Of a DNA stretch of 64,000 bases, positions 1-15,066 are shown piece after piece. Origin of the DNA: Streptomyces spinosisporus (lineage in GTDB: Bacteria; Actinomycetota; Actinomycetes; Streptomycetales; Streptomycetaceae); contig NZ_JALDAX010000004.1 of NCBI RefSeq assembly GCF_022698145.1, forward strand, positions 248,001 to 312,000. The letters are read 5' to 3'. The notes beneath the pieces were generated by a model, which saw only the letters and a program-made list of their open reading frames with translations, searched no databases and was not told the DNA's origin. How positions within the stretch are numbered: position 1 is the stretch's first letter; each line of letters begins with the position of its first letter. The position numbers were made by a program, and so were the translations under genes.

Positions 1-33
1 TCTCCCAGTGCTGACTCAGTCAGCGTACACAAA

Positions 34-54
34 GTTGAGTCTATTCCACTCAAG
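34..54. promoter_or_regulatory. HspR operator (HAIR), probably for clpB outside the window
   Basis: The sequence GTTGAGT-N7-ACTCAAG matches the HspR-associated inverted repeat (consensus CTTGAGT-N7-ACTCAAG) with one mismatch. In Streptomyces HspR represses dnaK and clpB, and clpB lies near the dnaK operon. No heat-shock gene lies to the right of this box, so I infer that it controls a leftward clpB gene just beyond the window edge. The match is seen directly; the target is inferred. Confidence 0.75.
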
Positions 55-93
55 TCGACGCCCGCGAGGCCTCAGGGGCTAAGTTCCGGACTC

Positions 94-507
94 ATGGCGA
101 GCTATCCGCAGGATCCTGGTGCCCCCGACGCCGCATACCTCGGCTTCTGGCAGGAACGGCACCTGTGCACGCTGACGACTCCGCGCCCGGACGGCAGCCC
201 GCACGTCGTACCCGTCGGCGTCACCTATGACCCCGGGGCCCGGCTGGCCCGGGTGATCGCGGACAAGGCCAGCACGAAGGTGCAGAACGTGCTGGCGGCC
301 GGAGCCGAGGGGGCGAGGGTCGCCGTGTGCCAGGTGGAGGGGCGGCGCTGGGCGACGCTGGAGGGCCGGGCGGTCGTACGGACGGACCGGGACCGGGTCG
401 CGGAGGCCGAGCGGCGCTACGCCGAGCGCTACGGACGCACCCCGAGACCCAATCCGTCGCGCGTGGTGATCGAGATCGGACTGACCCGGGCAATGGGGCG
501 CGGATGA
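94..507 (+). CDS. Pyridoxamine 5'-phosphate oxidase-fold, probably F420- or FMN-dependent protein
   Basis: This 137-residue protein has the size and pattern of the split-barrel PPOX family that binds FMN or F420. The N-terminal stretch AYLGFWQERHLCTLTTPRPD followed by a segment with HVVPVGVTYD is the typical first barrel strand set. A lysine-rich motif KASTKVQN around residue 60 is the usual phosphate-binding region of the F420-type subfamily. Proteins of this kind reduce small substrates in the cytoplasm; the substrate here cannot be told. The gene stands alone and is transcribed away from the HAIR at 34-54. A strong hairpin follows it at 572-612. The family call is firm; the cofactor is inferred. 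Confidence 0.82.
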   Translation: MASYPQDPGAPDAAYLGFWQERHLCTLTTPRPDGSPHVVPVGVTYDPGARLARVIADKASTKVQNVLAAGAEGARVAVCQVEGRRWATLEGRAVVRTDRDRVAEAERRYAERYGRTPRPNPSRVVIEIGLTRAMGRG

Positions 508-571
508 CTGTTTCCAGCCAGGAAACGACCATGCCCGATTGCGTCGATACCCGGAAATGTCCCCCAAAACT

Positions 572-612
572 GCAGCGGCGTCACCGTGTTCAGGTCACGG
601 TGACGCCGCTGC
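572..612. terminator. Bidirectional hairpin terminator
   Basis: A perfect 17-bp inverted repeat (stem starting GCAGCGGCGTCACCGTG, 7-nt loop) lies between the convergent genes ending at 507 (plus) and 656 (minus). Its position and strength suggest a shared terminator. Confidence 0.8.
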
Positions 613-655
613 GGGGGGAAGCACCTGAGCGAACTGTTACGACGGGGGATTCGCG

Positions 656-991
656 TCAGGCACTGCGGGGGGTGGCTGAGATGGTCCGAACATCGGGGGT
701 TTCCGGTTCCACCAGCCGGTGGTCTCGCTGGTCCAGGTTCACAAAGATCATTCCGTACCGGATGGCACATCGCACGGGCTGCGGCGCGCCCCGGGGCCGC
801 CGCAGACACCGGTACGCCCGTACGTCCTCGTCCTCGTCGCGCGTGACGACGACCGGCTCACCGAAGACGGTCACCATCAGCGAGTCACCGGAGTGGGGGA
901 TCGCGGTGACCAGGTCGATGAAGTGCCAGCCGGAGCGGTAGGCCGTGGCCATTTCGCGACGGAAGGAGCGGTCGTCGGGTGGAGTGGTCAT
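656..991 (-). CDS. Stunted Rieske-like protein without cluster ligands, coupled to DSSW peptide
   Basis: This 111-residue protein resembles the N-terminal part of aromatic-ring-hydroxylating dioxygenase alpha subunits: residues around 30-60 read DSLMVTVFGEPVVVTRDED, then RAYRCLRRPRGAPQPVRC, then a strand IFVNLD. In real Rieske proteins the middle stretch carries C-x-H and C-x2-H ligands for the 2Fe-2S cluster; here no C-x-H or C-x2-H motif survives and the catalytic domain is missing. It starts at ATG 991, overlapping the stop of the upstream repeat-peptide gene (ATGA), so the two are probably translated together. It may be a binding or scaffold protein for the peptide. The Rieske relation is my reading of a weak similarity and needs a profile search. 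Confidence 0.55.
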   Translation of the reverse strand: MTTPPDDRSFRREMATAYRSGWHFIDLVTAIPHSGDSLMVTVFGEPVVVTRDEDEDVRAYRCLRRPRGAPQPVRCAIRYGMIFVNLDQRDHRLVEPETPDVRTISATPRSA

Positions 992-1260
992 GACGGAACG
1001 GCCCAGCTGCTGTCGGTCGGGGCCAGCCAGCTGCTGTCCTCCGGGGCAACCCAGGAGCTGTCCCCGGGGACATCGTCCGCAACGATCACCCAACTGCTGT
1101 CACCGGGAGGGGCGGCAGTGGTGCTCCAGCTGCTGTCCCCCGCGACATCACCCTTCGTCCCCGAGAGGCCGCTCAGCGCTCCGAGGGCCACGGCGGCGGA
1201 GAAGGCGGCGACAAGCGCCGAGCGAAGCATTCTCTTATGCATAGTCGGCTTCGTCCTCAT
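988..1260 (-). CDS. Secreted small protein with five DSSW repeats
   Basis: This 90-residue protein begins with a basic N-terminus (MRTKPTMHKRMLRS) and a hydrophobic stretch at about 13-32, which looks like a Sec signal peptide. The rest carries five copies of the tetrapeptide DSSW at residues 42-45, 54-57, 67-70, 75-78 and 83-86, spaced 8 to 13 residues apart and separated by Pro/Ala/Val-rich linkers. I chose ATG 1260 because AGGTGA lies just upstream and the signal peptide follows directly. It overlaps the downstream Rieske-like gene by ATGA and is divergent from the LuxR-type genes at 1377 and 2362. I know no function. A multi-core modified peptide, a secreted signal or a surface-binding peptide are all possible. 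Confidence 0.75.
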   Translation of the reverse strand: MRTKPTMHKRMLRSALVAAFSAAVALGALSGLSGTKGDVAGDSSWSTTAAPPGDSSWVIVADDVPGDSSWVAPEDSSWLAPTDSSWAVPS

Positions 1261-1376
1261 TTGAAGGTCACCTCTCCCCCGTCCGAATAAGACGATGGCC
1301 CATTCCGGCACGTCATGGCCACACAAACGATGCATCATGTTCCTGCACGTTCAGGACCCTGGGGGGTGGAGATCTG

Positions 1377-2357
1377 GTGATAAATGAGACTAAGCGGACA
1401 CATCCCCATGGGTTGACCGACCTGTGCGAGGATGGACGCCGCCTCTACGGCAACGCTCTCCGGACGGGCCGGATAGCCCGTACGGATGTGGAACCCGCGC
1501 CGTGCCTGATGGAGTTCGCCCTACTTCATCCCGATCCCGACGACCCGAACTGGCTGCGCCCGGTACCCCCTTCGGTCGCCCTCGCCCAGCGCCTCACCCC
1601 GATCGAGAACGAGATCACCCAGCGCAGGCGGATGTCCATCGAACTCGCGGACGCTTTCGAGCCGTTCATGACGCTCAGCGCCCAGTCGACGGGCACCACC
1701 CACTCCATCACGGTGCTGGAGGGCCTCGACCGGATCAACGCCGCCCTCGACCTGGCCACGGCCCAGTGCCAGACCGAGATGCTCACCGTCCAGCCCAGCC
1801 GCCGGCGCCTGGAGCACACCCTCACCAAGGCCCTGGAACGCGACCGCCCGCTGATCGAACGCGGCTGCCGCATCCGCACGCTCTACCAGCACCCCGCCCG
1901 CTACAGCCCCGAAACCCTGGCCTACGTCGCCCAGTTCACCGACGGCAAGGTGGAGTACCGCACCATCGACGAGCTCGTCGAGCGGCTGATCATCTGCGAC
2001 GAGACGGTGGCCTTCATCCCGACCCGCGACGACGGCACGATCGCCCTCGAACTCCGGCATCCGGGGCTCGTCCGCTATCTGATCAAGGTCTTCGAGTTCA
2101 TGTGGACCCGCGCCGTCCCGCTGAGCGCGGGCGCCCCCTACGAGACCGCCCCCGACGGCATCACGGAGATCCAGCACTCCATCGCCAAGCTGCTCGTCGA
2201 GGGCCATGTCGACGAGGCGATCGCACGGCGCCTGGGCATGAACGTACGCACCTGCCGGGCCCACATCGCCAAGCTCGCCACGGCTCTGGGCAGCGGCAGC
2301 CGGGCCCAACTCGGCTTCCTCATCGCGCAGTCGGGACTGCTGGAGCAGGACGTCTGA
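1377..2357 (+). CDS. LuxR-family regulator with TrmB/PLD-like sensor domain (copy 1)
   Basis: This 326-residue protein has three parts: an N-terminal helical segment (residues 10-110), a central domain (about 115-245) that resembles the phospholipase-D-like sensor region of TrmB-type regulators, and a C-terminal LuxR/GerE helix-turn-helix (about 265-320, with SIAKLLVEGHVDEAIARRLG followed by NVRTCRAHIAKL). The C-terminal helices bind DNA. GTG 1377 is preceded by a purine-rich GGTGGAG. It is divergent from the DSSW peptide gene, and copy 2 follows after four bases, so the two are an operon. It probably controls the peptide locus in response to an unknown ligand. Confidence 0.8.
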   Translation: MINETKRTHPHGLTDLCEDGRRLYGNALRTGRIARTDVEPAPCLMEFALLHPDPDDPNWLRPVPPSVALAQRLTPIENEITQRRRMSIELADAFEPFMTLSAQSTGTTHSITVLEGLDRINAALDLATAQCQTEMLTVQPSRRRLEHTLTKALERDRPLIERGCRIRTLYQHPARYSPETLAYVAQFTDGKVEYRTIDELVERLIICDETVAFIPTRDDGTIALELRHPGLVRYLIKVFEFMWTRAVPLSAGAPYETAPDGITEIQHSIAKLLVEGHVDEAIARRLGMNVRTCRAHIAKLATALGSGSRAQLGFLIAQSGLLEQDV

Positions 2358-2361
2358 GCCC

Positions 2362-3363
2362 GTGGGGAGGGACACGACGGGCCCGGCGACCCATCCGGAC
2401 CACGGACCGGACGAGCTGTGCCAGGAGGGAACGGCGCTCTACGAGCGCGCCCTGCGCGAGGGCCACGTACCCGACGAGGACGCCGCCGCGGCGCCCTGCC
2501 TGGTCGACCTCGGGCTGCTGCACCCCTCGATCGAGGATGCGGCGCGCCTGGAGCCCGTCGCACCCGCCGTCGCCCTGCACCGCCTGCTGCGCGCCTCGGA
2601 GAACCGGATAGCGCAGGAGCGGCGCCGCGAGGCCCGTCTCGCCGACCTGTTCGAACCCCTGATGCGGATCGACGGCGGGCGCACCGCGGGCGGCGGCTCC
2701 TCGGCCGTCGGGGTGCTGAGCGGATCCGAGCGCATCGGCCGGGCCATCACCGAGGCCATGGCCGACGGCAGCGAGGAACTGCTGGCCGTCCAGCCGCACA
2801 TCAGCCACACCCGCACGCCGCTGGCGGCGCGCGCCGAGGCCCTCGTGCGCGACCAGGACTTCCTCGACCGCGGCGGCCGTATCCGCACGCTCTACCAGCA
2901 CACGCTGCGGCACGCGCCGTCGGTGGTCGCCCGCTACGAGCAGCTCAGCGGGGACGCGCAGGCCCGCACGCTCGACGAGATCACCGACCGCCTGCTGGTC
3001 GTGGACCGCGCGGTCGCCTTCATCCCCGCCAACGCCGACCGCACGCTCGCCCTCGAGATCCGGCACCCGGTCATCGCCGGCTTCCTCGCCACCGCCTTCG
3101 ACCGCCTGTGGCGCCTGGCCACGCCCCTGTACCCGCTGGCCGCCCGACCGGCCGCACAGGGCGGCTTCACACCCCGCCAACGCGCCATAGCCGCCCTCCT
3201 CGTCGAGGGCCACACCGACACCGACATCGCGGAGCGGCTCGGCATGAACGTGCGGACCGCGCGCGTGCACATCGCCAAGCTGGCGGCCACGCTGGGCAGT
3301 GAGAGCCGGGCCCAGCTCGGCTATCTCATCGGACGGTCCGGGATTCTTGACCGGGAAGGGTGA
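2362..3363 (+). CDS. LuxR-family regulator with TrmB/PLD-like sensor domain (copy 2)
   Basis: This 333-residue protein shares its whole domain order with the gene just upstream: N-terminal helices with DELCQEGTALYERALREG, a central sensor-like domain including GGRIRTLYQHTLRHAP, and a C-terminal LuxR helix-turn-helix with AALLVEGHTDTDIAERLGMN. Translation starts at GTG 2362, four bases after the previous stop. It is a clear paralogue made by duplication. The 3' end overlaps the convergent copy 3 gene by 38 bp. Its ligand is unknown; co-expression with copy 1 suggests that they act together or form mixed dimers. Confidence 0.8.
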   Translation: MGRDTTGPATHPDHGPDELCQEGTALYERALREGHVPDEDAAAAPCLVDLGLLHPSIEDAARLEPVAPAVALHRLLRASENRIAQERRREARLADLFEPLMRIDGGRTAGGGSSAVGVLSGSERIGRAITEAMADGSEELLAVQPHISHTRTPLAARAEALVRDQDFLDRGGRIRTLYQHTLRHAPSVVARYEQLSGDAQARTLDEITDRLLVVDRAVAFIPANADRTLALEIRHPVIAGFLATAFDRLWRLATPLYPLAARPAAQGGFTPRQRAIAALLVEGHTDTDIAERLGMNVRTARVHIAKLAATLGSESRAQLGYLIGRSGILDREG

Positions 3364-4369
3364 GAGGGCCGGCGTCGGCGTGCCGGCGCGGGGCGTCCAG
3401 GCCCACCTGGGCGATGCGGACGCCGAGTTGGGTGCGGCTGGCCGCGCCGAGGGTCTCCGAGAGGCGGGCGATGTGGGCGCGGCAGGTGCGGACGCTTATG
3501 CCGAGCCGCTCCGCGATCACCGCGTCCTGGTGGCCCTCCGCCAGCAGCGCCGCGATGGACTGCTCGCGGTGCGAGATGCCCTCGATGCCGGTGTCGGGCA
3601 GCGGGGCGGTCAGCGGGATCGCCAGGCGCCAGAGCCGCTCGAAGACCGTGACCAGGTACTCGACCAGGGCCGGGTGGCGCAGTTCCAGGGCGAGCGTGCG
3701 GTCGGCGTTGGCGGGGATGAAGGCGACCCTGCGGTCGAACAGGATCAGCCGGTCGATGACCTCGTCCAGGGTGCGCGCCTCGACCGAACCACCCATCAGC
3801 TCGAGGTAGTTGAGCAGCCCCTGGCCGTGCCGGGCCACATGGGTGTACAGGTCGCGCATCCGTACGCCCCGCCCGCGCAGGGCGAGCGCCCGGTGCAGCC
3901 CCTCGGTCAGCTCGTCCTCGGGGCGGATGCCGCCGGGCTGGACGGTGAGGACCTCGGTCGTGCACGCCTCGGTCGCCTCGTCCATCGCGGCCTGGATGCG
4001 CGAGAGCCCGTCCAGGACACGGATCGCGGTGCCCTCCGCGACGCCGGGTCCGGTCTGTGTCTCGGGGCCCAGGCCCGCGTAGCGCTCCACGGCGGCGACC
4101 GCGGCGCCCACTTTGCGCTGGCTCGCGCTGACCTCGTCGTAGACCCCGCGCAGGAGCCGGGTCATGACCTCCTGCGGGGACGTCGGGACCAGCCAGTCCA
4201 TGTCGTCGGGGTCCGGATGCAGCAGGGCGAGCTCCAGCAGACACGGCACCGGTCCGGCGTCCGGGCGGGGCACACGGCCCCGCCGTACGGCCCGGGAGTA
4301 CACGCGCTCCCCGGCCTCGCACAGTCGGTCAGCACCGTGTGGATGCCCGTCCGTCCCGTGCCCGGCCAT
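3326..4369 (-). CDS. LuxR-family regulator with TrmB/PLD-like sensor domain (copy 3)
   Basis: This is a third member of the same regulator family (347 residues from ATG 4369), on the opposite strand. It keeps the N-terminal signature (HGADRLCEAGERVYSRAVRR), the central sensor-like domain (RDLYTHVARH, later AFIPANADRTLALELRHPAL) and the C-terminal helix-turn-helix (AALLAEGHQDAVIAERLGIS). An upstream in-frame start would add 24 arginine-rich residues not shared with the other two copies, so I prefer 4369. Its end overlaps copy 2 tail to tail. Three paralogues around one peptide gene point to a dedicated signalling locus, although which of them controls the peptide is not visible. Confidence 0.78.
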   Translation of the reverse strand: MAGHGTDGHPHGADRLCEAGERVYSRAVRRGRVPRPDAGPVPCLLELALLHPDPDDMDWLVPTSPQEVMTRLLRGVYDEVSASQRKVGAAVAAVERYAGLGPETQTGPGVAEGTAIRVLDGLSRIQAAMDEATEACTTEVLTVQPGGIRPEDELTEGLHRALALRGRGVRMRDLYTHVARHGQGLLNYLELMGGSVEARTLDEVIDRLILFDRRVAFIPANADRTLALELRHPALVEYLVTVFERLWRLAIPLTAPLPDTGIEGISHREQSIAALLAEGHQDAVIAERLGISVRTCRAHIARLSETLGAASRTQLGVRIAQVGLDAPRRHADAGPLTLPGQESRTVR

Positions 4370-4746
4370 CGCCCATCCCACCCCCGATATCGCCGCCCTT
4401 CGCAGCGCAACTATGCGCGGACGGGACCGGCTCCGCAACACGGCTCGACACCGAGTCGGGGGCGTTAAAGACCCGTAACTCCCGTTTTATACGGTCCTCA
4501 TCCCGTCACCTTGCAACAAGCTGACGGTGCCTGGGGGCAAGGTGGGGCGCGGGAGCCGGCGCACGGGCCGGCGATGGCGCGATACGGTCCGGGCCGGGGG
4601 TGAAGTCAGGGCCTTCGGCCGGACGTCAGAGGCGGTCGCGCAACGTCGCGTCCGCAAACACGACAGGGCCGCCGAACGGCGTGCGGCAGTACCGCGAGGG
4701 CCGTCGGCGGCAACGTCGTGCAGGGGTCACCGGGAGGCGGGAGCGA
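4370..4746. other. Intergenic region without a recognisable gene
   Basis: This 377-bp gap lies between the LuxR copy 3 start and the end of the binding-protein gene, both on the minus strand. It must hold the promoter of the LuxR gene; I see no convincing small gene or RNA in it. Confidence 0.5.
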
Positions 4747-5865
4747 TCACTTCAAGCCGATCGCCGCACACTCCGAGGCGTACTTCGAGGTGCAGATCTG
4801 CGAGACCTTGTAGATGCCGTCCGCGACCACCGTCGACTTGATGTTCTTGCGCGTCAGCGCGGTCACGGTGACCAGCTGCGCCCGGATGTCCTTGTTCGTG
4901 GGGCTGTCGACCGTGTCCTGGGTCAGCGCGTCGAACTCGATGTCCTTGCCCTGCACCTTGGCGATGGCCATCTGAGCGGCCGCCTGCGCCTCCTGCGGGT
5001 ACGACTTGTAGACGCTCATGTACTGCTCGCCGGCGACGATCCGCTGCACGGCCGTCAGCTCCGCGTCCTGTCCGGTCAGCGGCGGCATCTTGCTGACGCC
5101 CGCGTTCTGCAGGGCCGCGACGATGCCGCCCGCCATGCCGTCGTTGGCGGACAGGACGCCCGCGATGTCGTCCTTGCCGACCGCCTTGATCGCCTCGGAC
5201 ATGTTGGCCTGGGCGTTCTTCGGGTCCCAGTCCTTGGTGTCGTAGGACTCGGCGATCGTCACCTTGCCCTTGAGCTCGGAGAGCGCGCCCGCCTTGAACT
5301 GCTTGGCGTTCGGGTCGGTGGGCGAGCCGTTCATCATCACGATCTTGTCGGAGGTGCTGACGTCGCTGCCCAGCGCGTCGAGCAGCGAGCGGCCCTGGAC
5401 CTCGCCGACGAGCTCGTTGTCGAAGGAGACGTAGGCGTCGATGGGGCCCTCGGCCAGGCGGTCGTAGGCGATGACCGGGATGCCGGCGTCCTTGGCCTTC
5501 TGCACCTCGCCCGCGATGGCGTGCGCGTCCACGGCGTCCAGCACGATGATGTCGACCTTGTTGTCGATCATCTCCTGCATCTGGCTCGCCTGCTTGTCCG
5601 CGTCCTGGTCCGCGTTCTTGTAGTCGACCTTGCCCTGCTGCTTGGTCAGCGAGGCGACCTGCTTCTTGATGATGGGGTAGTCGAAGTCCTCGTACCGTGT
5701 GTTGGCGGTCTCCGGCAGCAGCAGGCCGATGGTGACGTCGTTGCCCTTGGTCGGGCTGGCCGAACTGCTGTCCCCCGACACGTTCAGCACGCCGCAGGAG
5801 GCGAGAGACAGGCTGGTCGCGGCTACTGCTGTGCACAGGGCGATACGACGGGTGCGGGTGTTCAC
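4747..5865 (-). CDS. Sugar ABC transporter substrate-binding lipoprotein, orphan
   Basis: This 372-residue protein is a periplasmic-binding-protein type I (XylF/RbsB class) sugar receptor. It starts at GTG 5865, with GGAAGG upstream, and has a short signal peptide ending in the lipobox LASC, so it should be anchored outside the membrane as a lipoprotein. Typical motifs are TIGLLLPETANTRYEDFDYP, VDIIVLDAVDAHAIAGEVQK, IPVIAYDRL and SANDGMAGGIVAALQ. The family binds xylose, ribose or related sugars and hands them to an ATPase and permease, but neither gene is next to it. It may serve a transporter encoded elsewhere or act as a sensor. Upstream lies the terminator of the hspR operon. Confidence 0.88.
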   Translation of the reverse strand: MNTRTRRIALCTAVAATSLSLASCGVLNVSGDSSSASPTKGNDVTIGLLLPETANTRYEDFDYPIIKKQVASLTKQQGKVDYKNADQDADKQASQMQEMIDNKVDIIVLDAVDAHAIAGEVQKAKDAGIPVIAYDRLAEGPIDAYVSFDNELVGEVQGRSLLDALGSDVSTSDKIVMMNGSPTDPNAKQFKAGALSELKGKVTIAESYDTKDWDPKNAQANMSEAIKAVGKDDIAGVLSANDGMAGGIVAALQNAGVSKMPPLTGQDAELTAVQRIVAGEQYMSVYKSYPQEAQAAAQMAIAKVQGKDIEFDALTQDTVDSPTNKDIRAQLVTVTALTRKNIKSTVVADGIYKVSQICTSKYASECAAIGLK

Positions 5866-6010
5866 TGCGTTGACCTTCCGGACAAGGGTGCTTGGGGCGG
5901 CCCAGGTGAACGAAGCCAACGCTTTCTTCACACGATCGTCAAGGAATAACCAGGTAATGAGATGTCAACGTTAGAGTCCGGCCAGGTTCTTGACCCGAGA
6001 CGGACGGCCC

Positions 6011-11659: not shown

Positions 11660-13942
11660 ATGCAACTCGCCGCGATCATCGTGTCGATGGTCCTGATCGT
11701 GGTTGGTGTGGCCCTGTTCGCCCGCGCCATCCTGCAGATCTACAACTTCATGCGGCTCGGCCAGAGCGTGCCCGCCGGTACCCGTACCGACGAGCCCGTG
11801 CAGCGCACCGTCACGGTGGTCAAGGAGTTCCTCGGCCACACCCGGATGAACCGCTGGGGGATCGTCGGCGCCGCGCACTGGTTCGTGGCGGTGGGCTTCT
11901 TCACCCTGCTGCTGACGATCGTCAACGCCATCGGCCAGCTCTTCCAGGCCGACTGGATCCTGCCGGTGATCGGTGACTGGGCGCCGTACAACGTCTTCGT
12001 CGAGTTCATCGGCACGATGACCGTGCTCGGCATCCTGGTCCTGATCGGCATCCGTCAGCTCAGCCACCCGCGCAGGCCGGGCCGCAAGTCCCGGTTCGCC
12101 GGCTCCAACTTCGGCCAGGCGTACTTCGTCGAGGCGGTCATCCTCATCGTCGGCGTGTGCATCTTCATGCTGCACGCGCTGGAGGGCGCCCAGCACCACG
12201 TGGAGGGCTACGAGGCCTCGTTCTTCGTCTCGTACCCGGTGGTGTCGTGGCTGCGGGGCATGGACGTCTCCACGCTGCAGAACCTCACGTACTTCTTCGC
12301 GGGCCTGAAGATCGCGACCTCGTTCATCTGGATGATCGTGGTCGGCCTGAAGACCGACATGGGTGTGGCCTGGCACCGCTTCCTCGCCTTCCCCAACATC
12401 TGGTTCAAGCGGGACGCCGCGGGCGGCACGGCCCTCGGCCCGCTGCTGCCGATGACCTCGGGCGGCGAGCCGATCGACTTCACCGACCCCGGCGAGGACG
12501 ACGTCTTCGGCGTCTCGCAGGTCGAGCAGTTCTCCTGGAAGGGCCTGCTGGACTTCTCCACCTGCACCGAGTGCGGCCGCTGCCAGTCGCAGTGCCCGGC
12601 CTGGAACACCGGCAAGCCGCTCTCCCCGAAGCTGCTGATCATGTCGCTGCGCGACCACGCGCACGCCAAGGCGCCGTACCTGCTCGCGGGTGGCGGCAAG
12701 TCCATGGAGGGCGAGGAGAAGGCGTCCGAGGAGCAGCTGGCGGGCGTTCCCGCCGCCGCGCTCGCGGAGGCCGAGCGCCCGCTGATCGGCACGGCGGAGG
12801 AGAACGGCGTCATCGACCCGGACGTCCTGTGGTCCTGCACCACCTGCGGCGCCTGTGTCGAGCAGTGCCCGGTGGACATCGAGCACGTCGACCACATCGT
12901 CGACATGCGCCGCTACCAGGTGATGATCGAGTCCGCGTTCCCGTCCGAGGCGGGCACGATGCTCAAGAACCTGGAGAAGAAGGGCAACCCCTGGGGGCTG
13001 GCGAAGAAGCAGCGCCTGGAGTGGCTCAAGGAGGTCGACTTCGAGGTCCCGGTCGTCGGCCAGGACATCGAGGACCTCACCGAGGTCGAGTACCTCTACT
13101 GGGTCGGCTGCGCCGGCTCCCTGGAGGACCGCGCCAAGAAGACGACGAAGGCCTTCGCCGAGCTCCTCCACATCGCGGGCGTCAAGTTCGCGATCATGGG
13201 CGGCGACGAGAAGTGCACCGGCGACTCCGCCCGCCGCCTCGGCAACGAGCCCCTCTTCCAGGAGCTCGGCATGGAGAACGTCATGGCGCTGAACATGGCG
13301 TTCGGCGAGGAGCTGGACGACGACGGCAAGGTCGTCGCGGAGTCCGCGAAGCCGAAGTCCGCGAAGAAGATCGTCGCGACCTGCCCGCACTGCCTGAACA
13401 CGATCGGCAACGAGTACCCGCAGCTCGGCGGCGACTACGAGGTCATCCACCACACCCAGCTGCTGCAGCACCTGGTCGACGAGGGCAAGCTGATCCCCGT
13501 CACCCCGGTCGAGGGCATCATCACCTACCACGACCCCTGCTACCTGGGCCGCCACAACAAGATCTACACGCCCCCGCGCGAGATCATCGCGAACGTCCCG
13601 GGCCTCCGGAACGAGGAGATGCACCGCCACAAGGAGCGCGGCTTCTGCTGCGGCGCGGGCGGTGCGCGCATGTGGATGGAGGAGCGGATCGGCAAGCGCA
13701 TCAACAACGAGCGCGTCGACGAGGCCCTGTCGCTGAACCCCGACATCGTCTCCACGGCCTGCCCGTTCTGCCTGGTCATGCTCACGGACTCGATGAACGG
13801 CAAGAAGAACGACGGCAAGGCCAAGGAGTCCATCCAGGTGGTGGACGTGGCCCAGCTGCTCCTCGACTCGGTCAAGACCCCGGTGGACCCGGCGGGCGAA
13901 CCGGAGTCGGAGAACGAACCGGAGCCGGAGCCGGTGAAGTAG
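11660..13942 (+). CDS. FadF-type membrane Fe-S oxidoreductase (heterodisulfide-reductase-related)
   Basis: This 760-residue protein combines a membrane cytochrome-b-like N-terminus (about five helices in residues 1-230), two 4Fe-4S motifs (CTECGRCQSQCP at 302-313 and CTTCGACVEQCP at 393-404) and two C-terminal CCG domains (CPHCLNTIGNEY region and CCGAGGARMW, then ACPFC). That order is typical of FadF/HdrD-like proteins that pass electrons from acyl-CoA dehydrogenase or flavoprotein donors to the quinone pool. ATG 11660 has GAGGAGC upstream. The tail is Glu/Pro-rich. It is monocistronic, with a terminator at 13977-14009. Confidence 0.9.
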   Translation: MQLAAIIVSMVLIVVGVALFARAILQIYNFMRLGQSVPAGTRTDEPVQRTVTVVKEFLGHTRMNRWGIVGAAHWFVAVGFFTLLLTIVNAIGQLFQADWILPVIGDWAPYNVFVEFIGTMTVLGILVLIGIRQLSHPRRPGRKSRFAGSNFGQAYFVEAVILIVGVCIFMLHALEGAQHHVEGYEASFFVSYPVVSWLRGMDVSTLQNLTYFFAGLKIATSFIWMIVVGLKTDMGVAWHRFLAFPNIWFKRDAAGGTALGPLLPMTSGGEPIDFTDPGEDDVFGVSQVEQFSWKGLLDFSTCTECGRCQSQCPAWNTGKPLSPKLLIMSLRDHAHAKAPYLLAGGGKSMEGEEKASEEQLAGVPAAALAEAERPLIGTAEENGVIDPDVLWSCTTCGACVEQCPVDIEHVDHIVDMRRYQVMIESAFPSEAGTMLKNLEKKGNPWGLAKKQRLEWLKEVDFEVPVVGQDIEDLTEVEYLYWVGCAGSLEDRAKKTTKAFAELLHIAGVKFAIMGGDEKCTGDSARRLGNEPLFQELGMENVMALNMAFGEELDDDGKVVAESAKPKSAKKIVATCPHCLNTIGNEYPQLGGDYEVIHHTQLLQHLVDEGKLIPVTPVEGIITYHDPCYLGRHNKIYTPPREIIANVPGLRNEEMHRHKERGFCCGAGGARMWMEERIGKRINNERVDEALSLNPDIVSTACPFCLVMLTDSMNGKKNDGKAKESIQVVDVAQLLLDSVKTPVDPAGEPESENEPEPEPVK

Positions 13943-13976
13943 TCGGCTCTACGGCGCTATCTCTACGGCGCTATTG

Positions 13977-14009
13977 ACGCCCCCATGTCCTACGCGGACG
14001 TGGGGGCGT
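13977..14009. terminator. Terminator after the Fe-S oxidoreductase gene
   Basis: The inverted repeat ACGCCCCCATGTCC / GGACGTGGGGGCGT (one mismatch, short loop) is followed by a T run. It lies between convergent genes and probably stops transcription from both sides. Confidence 0.75.
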
Positions 14010-14035
14010 CGGCGTTTTGCCGCTCCCGGGGGGGC

Positions 14036-14317
14036 TCAGTTCAAGCGCCCCAGCCGCAGGCCACGGCTCTCGGCGACGCGCAGGGCGTCCCGGAGCGCCT
14101 CCGCCAGCCGCTCGGCAAGGAACCGGAGTTCACCAGGGGGCGCGCAGGGGAGCAGGTCCCCGGCGTGAGCGAGCAGTTCTGCACCCATCCCGAGCTGAAT
14201 GGACTCGGTGGCGTCGGCGAGCCGGGAGAGGGGCCCGCCGACGTCGTCACTGATCAGATAACAGGGCTTGCCCTCTTCACCGGCCCAGGGAAGGAGGCGG
14301 GGCGCAGTCGGCTCCAT
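14036..14317 (-). CDS. Conserved hypothetical protein next to GntR regulator
   Basis: This 93-residue protein is mostly helical, with LSRLADATESIQLGMGAELL and LRFLAERLAEALRDALRVAE. No transmembrane segment or known motif is visible. Its ATG overlaps the stop of the upstream gene (TGATG), so the two are coupled. Together with the upstream gene and a divergent GntR regulator it forms a small locus of unknown function. I cannot assign a role. Confidence 0.55.
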   Translation of the reverse strand: MEPTAPRLLPWAGEEGKPCYLISDDVGGPLSRLADATESIQLGMGAELLAHAGDLLPCAPPGELRFLAERLAEALRDALRVAESRGLRLGRLN

Positions 14318-14610
14318 CAGGCGACCTCCGTTCCGTGAATCCAGTACGGCCCCGGCATGTCCAACCCCAGTGCGGCGAGGGCGAGTTCACGCCGCCGTAG
14401 CCGCTGCTCGTGGGCGATGAGGTAGGGGCGTACGGCGATGGTTGCGGTGCCGTCGAGCGGGAGGTGGAGGCCGTACGGGCTGCGGTGGGCCGGGAGAGGG
14501 TGAAGCAGCGGCTCCCGGTGTTGGGCAGGGGACTGCGGTGCGGGTTGGGTTGGGCGCGGGATGAGCAGGAGTCGCGTCCAGGCGGCGAGTCGGTGGATAA
14601 GGTCGGTCAC
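14317..14610 (-). CDS. Hypothetical protein in the GntR-linked operon
   Basis: This 97-residue protein starts at GTG 14610 (VTDLIHRLAAWTRLLLIPRP) and ends GPYWIHGTEVA. The middle contains VRPYLIAHEQRLRRRELALA, a likely amphipathic helix. It is Pro/His/Arg-rich and has no recognised domain. It is the first gene of a two-gene operon read away from the GntR gene at 14775, so that regulator probably controls it. Confidence 0.55.
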   Translation of the reverse strand: MTDLIHRLAAWTRLLLIPRPTQPAPQSPAQHREPLLHPLPAHRSPYGLHLPLDGTATIAVRPYLIAHEQRLRRRELALAALGLDMPGPYWIHGTEVA

Positions 14611-14700
14611 GTCATCAGCTCCGTTGTAGCTGGCGGCCACGCCCCCGGACGGCGCCAACCGTCGCGGGGGTCTGTTCGTGGTCCTACCGTAACGGAGGGA

Positions 14701-14758
14701 GTCCAGGCATGCTAGGTATCACAGGTATTGCGTGAATCGCACGGGTGTCCAGGTATGC
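14701..14758. promoter_or_regulatory. Direct repeat, candidate GntR operator
   Basis: GTCCAGGCATGC (14701-14712) recurs as GTCCAGGTATGC (14747-14758), 46 bp apart, in the divergent gap between the GntR gene and its neighbour operon. Repeats so placed are likely binding sites for the GntR protein. The role is inferred. Confidence 0.5.
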
Positions 14759-14774
14759 GAAAGATAGAGGGGTG

Positions 14775-15029
14775 ATGGAATTCGCTCCTGACATCCCCCG
14801 CTGGCGCCAGGTCGCCGAGATCATCCGACGCCGAATCGCGGACGGTACGTACGCCCCGCGCTCCAGAGTGCCGTCCGTCGTCCAACTGACGTCGGAATTC
14901 GGGATCGCCAACGCCACGGCCCACAAGGTCCTGCGCGCCCTGCGCGAAGAAGGGCTGACCTACACCGAGCCCGGCCTCGGCTCCTTCGTGGCGAAGCGCC
15001 CCGCCGAGGACGGCGACGCGTCCGAGTAG
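14775..15029 (+). CDS. Short GntR-family transcriptional regulator
   Basis: This 84-residue protein is little more than a GntR winged helix-turn-helix: IPRWRQVAEIIRRRIADGTY, PRSRVPSVVQLTSEFGIANA and TAHKVLRALREEGLTYTEPG. It lacks a ligand-binding domain, as in many short Streptomyces GntR proteins of the YtrA/conjugation type. ATG 14775 has GAGGGG upstream. The divergent two-gene operon is the likely target; a direct repeat at 14701/14747 could be the operator. Confidence 0.87.
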   Translation: MEFAPDIPRWRQVAEIIRRRIADGTYAPRSRVPSVVQLTSEFGIANATAHKVLRALREEGLTYTEPGLGSFVAKRPAEDGDASE

Positions 15030-15066
15030 GACCGTCCGCCCGGCGGGGCGCTCACGAGGTCGGGGG

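Follow-up and report, generated by a model that had tools for sequence, protein, structure and literature searches.

A small, secreted-looking protein of Streptomyces spinosisporus that carries five copies of the tetrapeptide DSSW is, judging from sequence comparisons, quite probably the precursor of a multicopy peptide pheromone whose cytoplasmic receptor would be LuxR1, the product of the divergent neighboring gene; the logic would resemble that of RRNPP systems, with an unrelated receptor. The repeated unit is kept uniform within each precursor while changing between species, and LuxR1 is the only neighbor among those tested that clearly co-varies with it. The original prediction for this DNA overlooked this main point, i.e., that the unit is species variable and co-varies with LuxR1 and not with the Rieske-like protein encoded beside it.

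Gene content and conservation of the locus

The features listed in Table 1 lie within the window, i.e., the whole 64,000-nucleotide stretch that was analyzed. The 90-aa precursor with its five DSSW units and the ATGA coupling of its gene to that of the 111-residue protein are present as originally described, and the signal peptide claimed for the precursor corresponds to a basic, hydrophobic leader that is signal-like by sequence. Three LuxR-type paralogues were also found. LuxR2 and LuxR3 share 48 to 50% identity with LuxR1; no other protein of the genome is more than 24% identical to it. However, the statement that they flank the precursor was loosely worded, because all three regulator genes sit on one side only: luxR1 is divergent from the precursor gene, and luxR2 and luxR3 come after luxR1. 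On the other side, beyond the PPOX gene, the locus adjoins a gene that we take, from its translation inspected by eye, to be clpB.

Table 1. Features of the locus in the window
Feature	Coordinates	Strand	Remarks
Candidate pheromone precursor gene, 90 aa	988..1260	minus	ATG start; leader MRTKPTMHKRMLRSALVAAFSAAVALG..., five DSSW units downstream
DSSW unit 1 (GACAGCAGCTGG)	1126..1137	minus	Residue 42 of precursor
DSSW unit 2 (GACAGCAGTTGG)	1090..1101	minus	Residue 54 of precursor; change synonymous
DSSW unit 3 (GACAGCTCCTGG)	1051..1062	minus	Residue 67 of precursor; serine codon AGC to TCC
DSSW unit 4 (GACAGCAGCTGG)	1027..1038	minus	Residue 75 of precursor
DSSW unit 5 (GACAGCAGCTGG)	1003..1014	minus	Residue 83 of precursor
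Rieske-like protein, 111 aa	656..991	minus	Without His ligands; putatively accessory; start overlaps precursor stop (ATGA)
Inverted repeat GGGTCCTGAACGTGCAGGAACATGA	1335..1359	minus	Conserved, in divergent intergenic region; putative LuxR1 operator
LuxR1	1377..2357	plus	TrmB/PLD-like sensor (about residues 106 to 250) and C-terminal LuxR-type HTH; probable cognate receptor (Met135, Asp156)
LuxR2	2362..3363	plus	Paralogue of LuxR1; copy number differs among species
LuxR3	3326..4441	minus	Paralogue of LuxR1; no co-variation with unit
PNPOx_N (pyridoxamine phosphate oxidase-like, PPOX) gene	94..507	plus	Conserved convergent neighbor; little or no co-variation with unit

We compared 140 loci (the window, 80 loci, and 59 further loci, with one duplicate removed, L179 being L176), which hold 132 distinct precursors; the source collections may share species. 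Divergent precursors that the first-pass patterns had missed were then added for 5 and 15 loci. A precursor beside the Rieske-like gene and an adjacent luxR1 gene were present in all 140. The ATGA overlap occurs in 67/140; elsewhere, the precursor mostly stops a few bases ahead of the Rieske-like start. A search for DSSW-repeat peptides next to these regulators in other Streptomyces genomes had been proposed; the precursor is indeed there, but the DSSW sequence itself varies among species. Among the 139 loci outside the window, 70 yielded LuxR2 and 91 yielded LuxR3; many of the 139 are too short to contain them. Tandem copies of LuxR2 (e.g., in L080, 4665 to 8686) number from none to four among species, as if the locus stored spare receptors. 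The Rieske-like protein matched 257 of the 295 sampled genomes of the genus (E up to 1e-3), although at least 14 of these matches are weak, with E values of around 1e-17 and upward, and could represent genuine oxygenases. Across the order, matches occurred in 232/293 sampled genomes and two of nine genera, the second genus only at 9.5e-6. Searches of Rfam and of phage records returned no match, and one of PHROGs returned a single weak HTH match.

Units are uniform within precursors and variable between species

The precursors of the 140 loci contain 36 distinct four-mers with the consensus [D/E/N]-x-x-W, including DSSW, DSTW, DVGW, DLGW, DTGW, EPTW, EPSW, DPGW, DSHW, and DTRW. Asp, Glu, or Asn lies three residues ahead of 390 of the 391 Trp residues found at or after residue 25, and by this count each precursor carries one to eight units. 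The multicore anatomy of the original prediction is thus real, with several copies of one unit per precursor. A single four-mer is used throughout 94 of the 103 distinct multicopy precursors (the other nine are not homogeneous), whereas shuffling the copies among precursors left 4.9 homogeneous on average and 14 at most (5,000 shuffles). Identity at unit positions 1 to 4 was 0.99, 0.99, 0.96, and 1 within precursors versus 0.76, 0.36, 0.21, and 1 between them. Homogeneity extends partially to the residue after Trp (+1; 0.61 within and 0.13 between), and identity at the remaining flanking positions did not exceed 0.36 within precursors; flanks and spacing are unconserved. Single-copy precursors end one residue after Trp in 18/30 cases. 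The longest array, upstream of the Rieske-like gene in L162, has nine DSGWG units by eye (eight by the trimmed count).

Synonymous differences separate 330 of 485 within-precursor copy pairs, including 36 serine AGY/TCN switches, and pN/pS was 0.028 in the unit versus 0.86 in the flanks; these copy-pair statistics are descriptive only, because the pairs are not independent. The copies are nearly identical in protein yet old at the DNA level, and therefore selection holds every copy to the same short product, which itself differs between species. Recent tandem duplication was rejected as the source of the identical units, since most copy pairs differ synonymously and the spacers are unlike. Conservation and pN/pS likewise rule out a chance or artifactual ORF.

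LuxR1 co-varies with the unit

Distances between LuxR1 proteins were correlated with distances between units in a partial Mantel test on the 48 loci with all genes, with the distances of LuxR3, the Rieske-like protein, PPOX, and the sugar-binding protein as controls (r = 0.56, P = 0.0005); this r is inflated by linkage, because the luxR1 and precursor genes are adjacent, but the equally adjacent Rieske-like gene shows no such signal. In these 48 loci, LuxR3, the Rieske-like protein, PPOX, and the sugar-binding protein gave r values of −0.10 to 0.06. The result was similar with 113 loci and two controls (LuxR1, r = 0.55, P = 0.001; Rieske-like protein, −0.05; PPOX, 0.02). All four segments of LuxR1 contributed in this set, residues 101 to 180 the most (0.59) and the HTH the least (0.31). 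PPOX had a small effect in a 51-locus test with four controls (r = 0.115, P = 0.017). The Rieske-like protein was discarded as the specificity partner for its lack of co-variation with the unit. Phylogeny alone was addressed by the partial Mantel test against four neighbors and by independent pairs on the LuxR1 tree (see below).

The loci L032 (unit DVGW) and L036 (DSVW) share 86 to 97% of their DNA over most of luxR3 and 82 to 97% over the Rieske-like/PPOX side. Identity falls to about 70% in luxR1 and to 33% in the 150 bases immediately preceding the Rieske-like start, which contain the units. This pattern suggests cassette exchange with a border at the precursor/Rieske junction, by which unit and LuxR1 can apparently be exchanged together.

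Residues 135 and 156 of the LuxR1 sensor track the second unit position

An AlphaFold model of LuxR1 had a pLDDT of 80.7 and a pTM of 0.48, which leaves the domain placement uncertain. Foldseek matched it to TrmBL2 (E = 1e-13) and TrmB (1.6e-8). Residues 106 to 250 align with PLD-fold proteins and with the TrmB sugar-binding domain 2f5t (VIA Z 15.5; rmsd of 2.3 Å over 127 residues), and the C terminus aligns in structure comparison with LuxR-type HTH domains. A Pfam scan contained no TPR family, and at E up to 1 it revealed no autoinducer-binding domain in LuxR1 or LuxR2, the matches being HTH families and a weak DUF7436.

Two residues of this sensor, 135 and 156, follow the unit in the residue tables of 137 of the 140 LuxR1 proteins. 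Residue 135 is Met in all 72 cases with Ser at unit position 2, Val in 34/35 with Thr (the exception, L052, has an aberrant ITEW), Leu in 15/15 with Pro, Val in 7/7 with Val, and Val or Ile in 8/8 with Leu and Ile. Asp156 accompanies Ser or Thr at position 2 in 107/107 cases and Pro, Val, Leu, or Ile in 0/30. Normalized mutual information reached 0.70 for residue 135, compared with 0.25 for the top column of any other neighbor tested. On a tree of 130 LuxR1 proteins (identical ones left out; columns 126, 135, and 156 removed), there are 22 changes at unit position 2 and 21 at residue 135. The eight independent Ser/Thr pairs on supported branches all go in the same direction (sign test, P = 0.0078). 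The Asp156 pattern comprises very few independent switches, with one supported pair. The larger Met would fit the smaller Ser and the smaller Val the larger Thr, and Asp could hydrogen-bond the hydroxyl.

The inverted repeat AGGGTCCTGAACRTGCAGGAACATGA upstream of luxR1 was found with a strict core pattern in 129 of the 140 intergenic regions and in none of 140 shuffled ones. In this genome it occurs once at up to three mismatches, and so it does not define a regulon beyond the locus.

Distant regulator-peptide pairs

Distant relatives of LuxR1 (about 30 to 41% identity) were sampled in 40 stretches and a further 18 plasmid stretches. Candidate peptides were picked by motif, some by eye, and hence not blind to the motif; residue 135 was not used for picking. 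A secreted-looking small ORF with [DN][STGP]xW was present in 20 of the 40 stretches, against 0/14 window chunks and 7/134 far flanks; two of these seven (L053 and L061) adjoin further LuxR1-like genes. By reading, nine plasmid stretches (L222, L223, L232 to L236, L238, and L239) had a convincing peptide and the other nine had none.

Residue 135 was Met in 8 of 10 distant Ser cases and in none of 15 Thr cases; the two Ser cases that break the Met rule beyond the core locus are L187, with Ala, and L223, with Leu. When L053 and L061 are set aside, the association of Met with Ser versus Thr in the remaining 23 cases gave a Fisher P of 2.8e-4, uncorrected for relatedness; L215 (DGAGW, with different spacing) and L212 (a doubtful ORF) were left out of the count. 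Residue 156 was Asp or Glu in 23/23 distant Ser/Thr cases, and Asp in L053 and L061 as well, versus 0/6 cases without a hydroxyl (DPIW, DMIW, DDEW, DDQW twice, and DDRW); Asp156 is the default state, because it is also common in relatives for which no peptide was found. The residue rule thus appears largely to recur in distant pairs, including those of Kitasatospora and other families of the class.

Several of these pairs have neighbors or arrangements of their own. On the plasmid stretches L232, L233, L236, and L238 (about 1490 to 4950), LuxR1 relatives and divergent small secreted-looking ORFs ending in DDEW, DDQW, or DDRW plus a short tail adjoin AfsA-related and phosphopantetheinyl transferase genes, a possible case of peptide control of biosynthetic clusters. 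In L223 (2546 to 5963), the relative with Leu135 and a small ORF ending in GDSAWG lie by β-methylarginine biosynthesis genes. L053 (about 13677 to 15030) and L061 (about 13779 to 15045) each carry an additional LuxR1-like gene a few kilobases from the main locus, accompanied by a separate secreted-looking ORF that ends in DSAWS or DSGWG. In L235, NDSGWG occurs in two secreted-looking ORFs (about 583 and 4025) on either side of one LuxR1 relative.

Rather than giving rise to an exported peptide, the precursor might act unprocessed inside the cell, as a small protein whose several units bind LuxR1 directly, making it a multivalent ligand or antagonist, and whose hydrophobic stretch serves as a membrane anchor. 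Such a ligand would account equally well for co-variation with LuxR1, and several core-locus leaders lack a clean A-x-A cleavage site. However, A-x-A-type sites read by eye stand directly before the unit in some distant precursors (SPAQA|DTAWE and GPANA|VDTTWG), flanks and spacing are not conserved, and single-copy precursors often stop one residue past the unit. We consider an intracellular ligand improbable, although it is the alternative to an exported pheromone that survives best.

The Rieske-like protein

The 111-residue protein lacks the cluster ligands, as originally noted: C-x-R...C-x2-R replaces C-x-H...C-x2-H, with Arg at both His positions and shortened ligand loops. The two Cys residues are conserved (138/139 and 139/139). 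The proposed check against Rieske profiles and folds had a mixed outcome, in that the NCBIfam GbcA model matched the protein (E = 3e-7) and all 50 PDB matches listed for its weak model (pLDDT of 68.6) were Rieske oxygenases (best E, 7.8e-4; rmsd of about 6 to 11 Å), while the Pfam Rieske score of 15.9 bits fell below the cut-off of 20.3. The resemblance to Rieske proteins appears real. The modeled fold is like the N-terminal Rieske domain of Rieske nonheme iron oxygenase alpha subunits, and an F-V-N-L-D segment presumably corresponds to a similar one in those subunits. Unlike them, the protein is short and has no catalytic domain. It is strongly conserved and ends in an invariant ATPRSA.

A multicore RiPP, in which Trp or Ser/Thr is modified, the Rieske-like protein acts as a chaperone or recognition subunit, and the product is an antibiotic or modified pheromone, would also suit the conserved partner gene adjoining the end of the precursor gene, the multicopy cores, and the invariant Trp, which is reminiscent of modified Trp pheromones such as ComX. 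Against this, the Rieske-like protein has no His ligands, no catalytic modifying enzyme was recognized nearby, and its strong matches were confined to this genus in the order-wide search, yet regulator-peptide pairs occur in other families. A RiPP is therefore doubtful, marginally more so than the intracellular ligand; of the modified multicore peptide originally suggested, the cores stand and the modification finds no enzyme recognized in the conserved neighborhood. That the secreted-looking protein with its repeated Trp motif simply binds an envelope component as a surface or cell wall protein, with no signaling, is scarcely credible, since this would explain neither the joint changes of the unit and residue 135 in a regulator predicted to be cytoplasmic nor the recurrence of the unit beside distant LuxR1 relatives.

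Discussion

The guess that the repeats represent a signal molecule is strongly supported by homogeneity within precursors, variability between species, and residue-level co-variation with LuxR1. For a pheromone read by LuxR1, the steps from export and processing to uptake and receptor binding are what we infer from these data, as is the direction of regulation. The precursor would be exported by its signal-like leader and cut into several copies of a short D-S-S-W peptide, possibly with the next residue. The peptide may re-enter cells via an oligopeptide importer and bind the TrmB/phospholipase D-like sensor of LuxR1, which would then alter transcription, with the palindrome that separates the precursor and luxR1 genes as its probable first site of action. 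Residue 135 would read peptide position 2 (Met fitting Ser and Val fitting Thr) and Asp156 the hydroxyl, and precursor and LuxR1 could diversify and be swapped together, resulting in species-specific pherotypes. No importer or protease was seen in association with the locus. Neither a membrane receptor kinase nor a processing or modifying enzyme was found among the six query genes in 80 loci or the ORFs of window positions 1 to 6000.

In RRNPP systems, the gene for a small propeptide lies next to that for a cytoplasmic TPR-type receptor/transcription factor, and a short linear peptide is exported and then reimported. Such peptide quorum sensing operates in Firmicutes (PMC10075063). Here, too, a small propeptide gene adjoins the receptor gene in 140/140 loci, with export predicted from sequence, and a short linear peptide and its reimport would follow the same logic by analogy. 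The putative receptor instead combines a TrmB/PLD-like sensor and, at its C terminus, a LuxR HTH; the precursor often carries two to eight copies, and the hosts are Actinomycetes.

The ComQXPA and Agr pherotypes also consist of signal and receptor that diversify together and are exchangeable as a block, and ComX keeps an invariant Trp. Unit and LuxR1 likewise diversify and seem to swap together around an invariant Trp, but the genes recognized alongside include neither a dedicated processing enzyme nor a membrane histidine kinase, and the regulator is predicted to be cytoplasmic. Multiple copies of one signal peptide per secreted precursor are known from the yeast alpha-factor; the secreted-looking precursors described here share this organization, but they are bacterial, with a unit of about four residues and an unrelated candidate receptor. 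The predicted sensor fold of LuxR1 resembles archaeal TrmB/TrmBL2. The HTH of TrmB is N-terminal and its ligands are sugars, whereas the HTH of LuxR1 is C-terminal and its ligand would be a peptide, as co-variation favors. Unlike the LuxR proteins of AHL-based LuxI/LuxR systems, LuxR1 and LuxR2 showed no autoinducer-binding domain in the Pfam scan.

In Streptomyces coelicolor, an extracellular 655-Da peptide signal, described by mass, is imported by the BldK oligopeptide permease and is presumed to start aerial growth (PMC9640686). The peptide proposed here would likewise be extracellular and, by analogy, imported by an oligopeptide permease. In the same species, clpB is SCO3661 (PMC2687793), SCO3665 and SCO3666 are LuxR-family proteins of 327 and 394 aa (PMC3282765), and SCO3664, termed a "regulator," belongs to the genes whose insertion increased actinorhodin more than 50-fold (PMC6585502). 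Its position in the gene order makes SCO3664 the probable orthologue of LuxR1. We found no mention of SCO3662 and SCO3663 and no earlier description of such a peptide/receptor system in the open-access literature, a scope outside which most subscription papers and all bioRxiv preprints fall.

Known Streptomyces signals are mostly small lactones, and the genus makes many antibiotics. It is reasonably likely, if somewhat less so than the pheromone function of the locus itself, that these pairs represent a new, actinomycete class of peptide quorum sensing, in which secreted peptides of the [D/N]-[S/T]-x-W type are read by TrmB-like LuxR receptors. A single locus, conserved in most Streptomyces, would have given rise to dozens of species-specific multicopy pherotypes, further copies would lie by biosynthetic genes on plasmids, and one member could be the BldK-imported peptide. 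If true, a nearly genus-wide, species-specific peptide/receptor pair would offer cheap synthetic switches for development or antibiotic production, with a residue 135/Asp156 key that would make receptor specificity addressable by single substitutions, and would point to a previously unrecognized bacterial peptide language with matched receptors.
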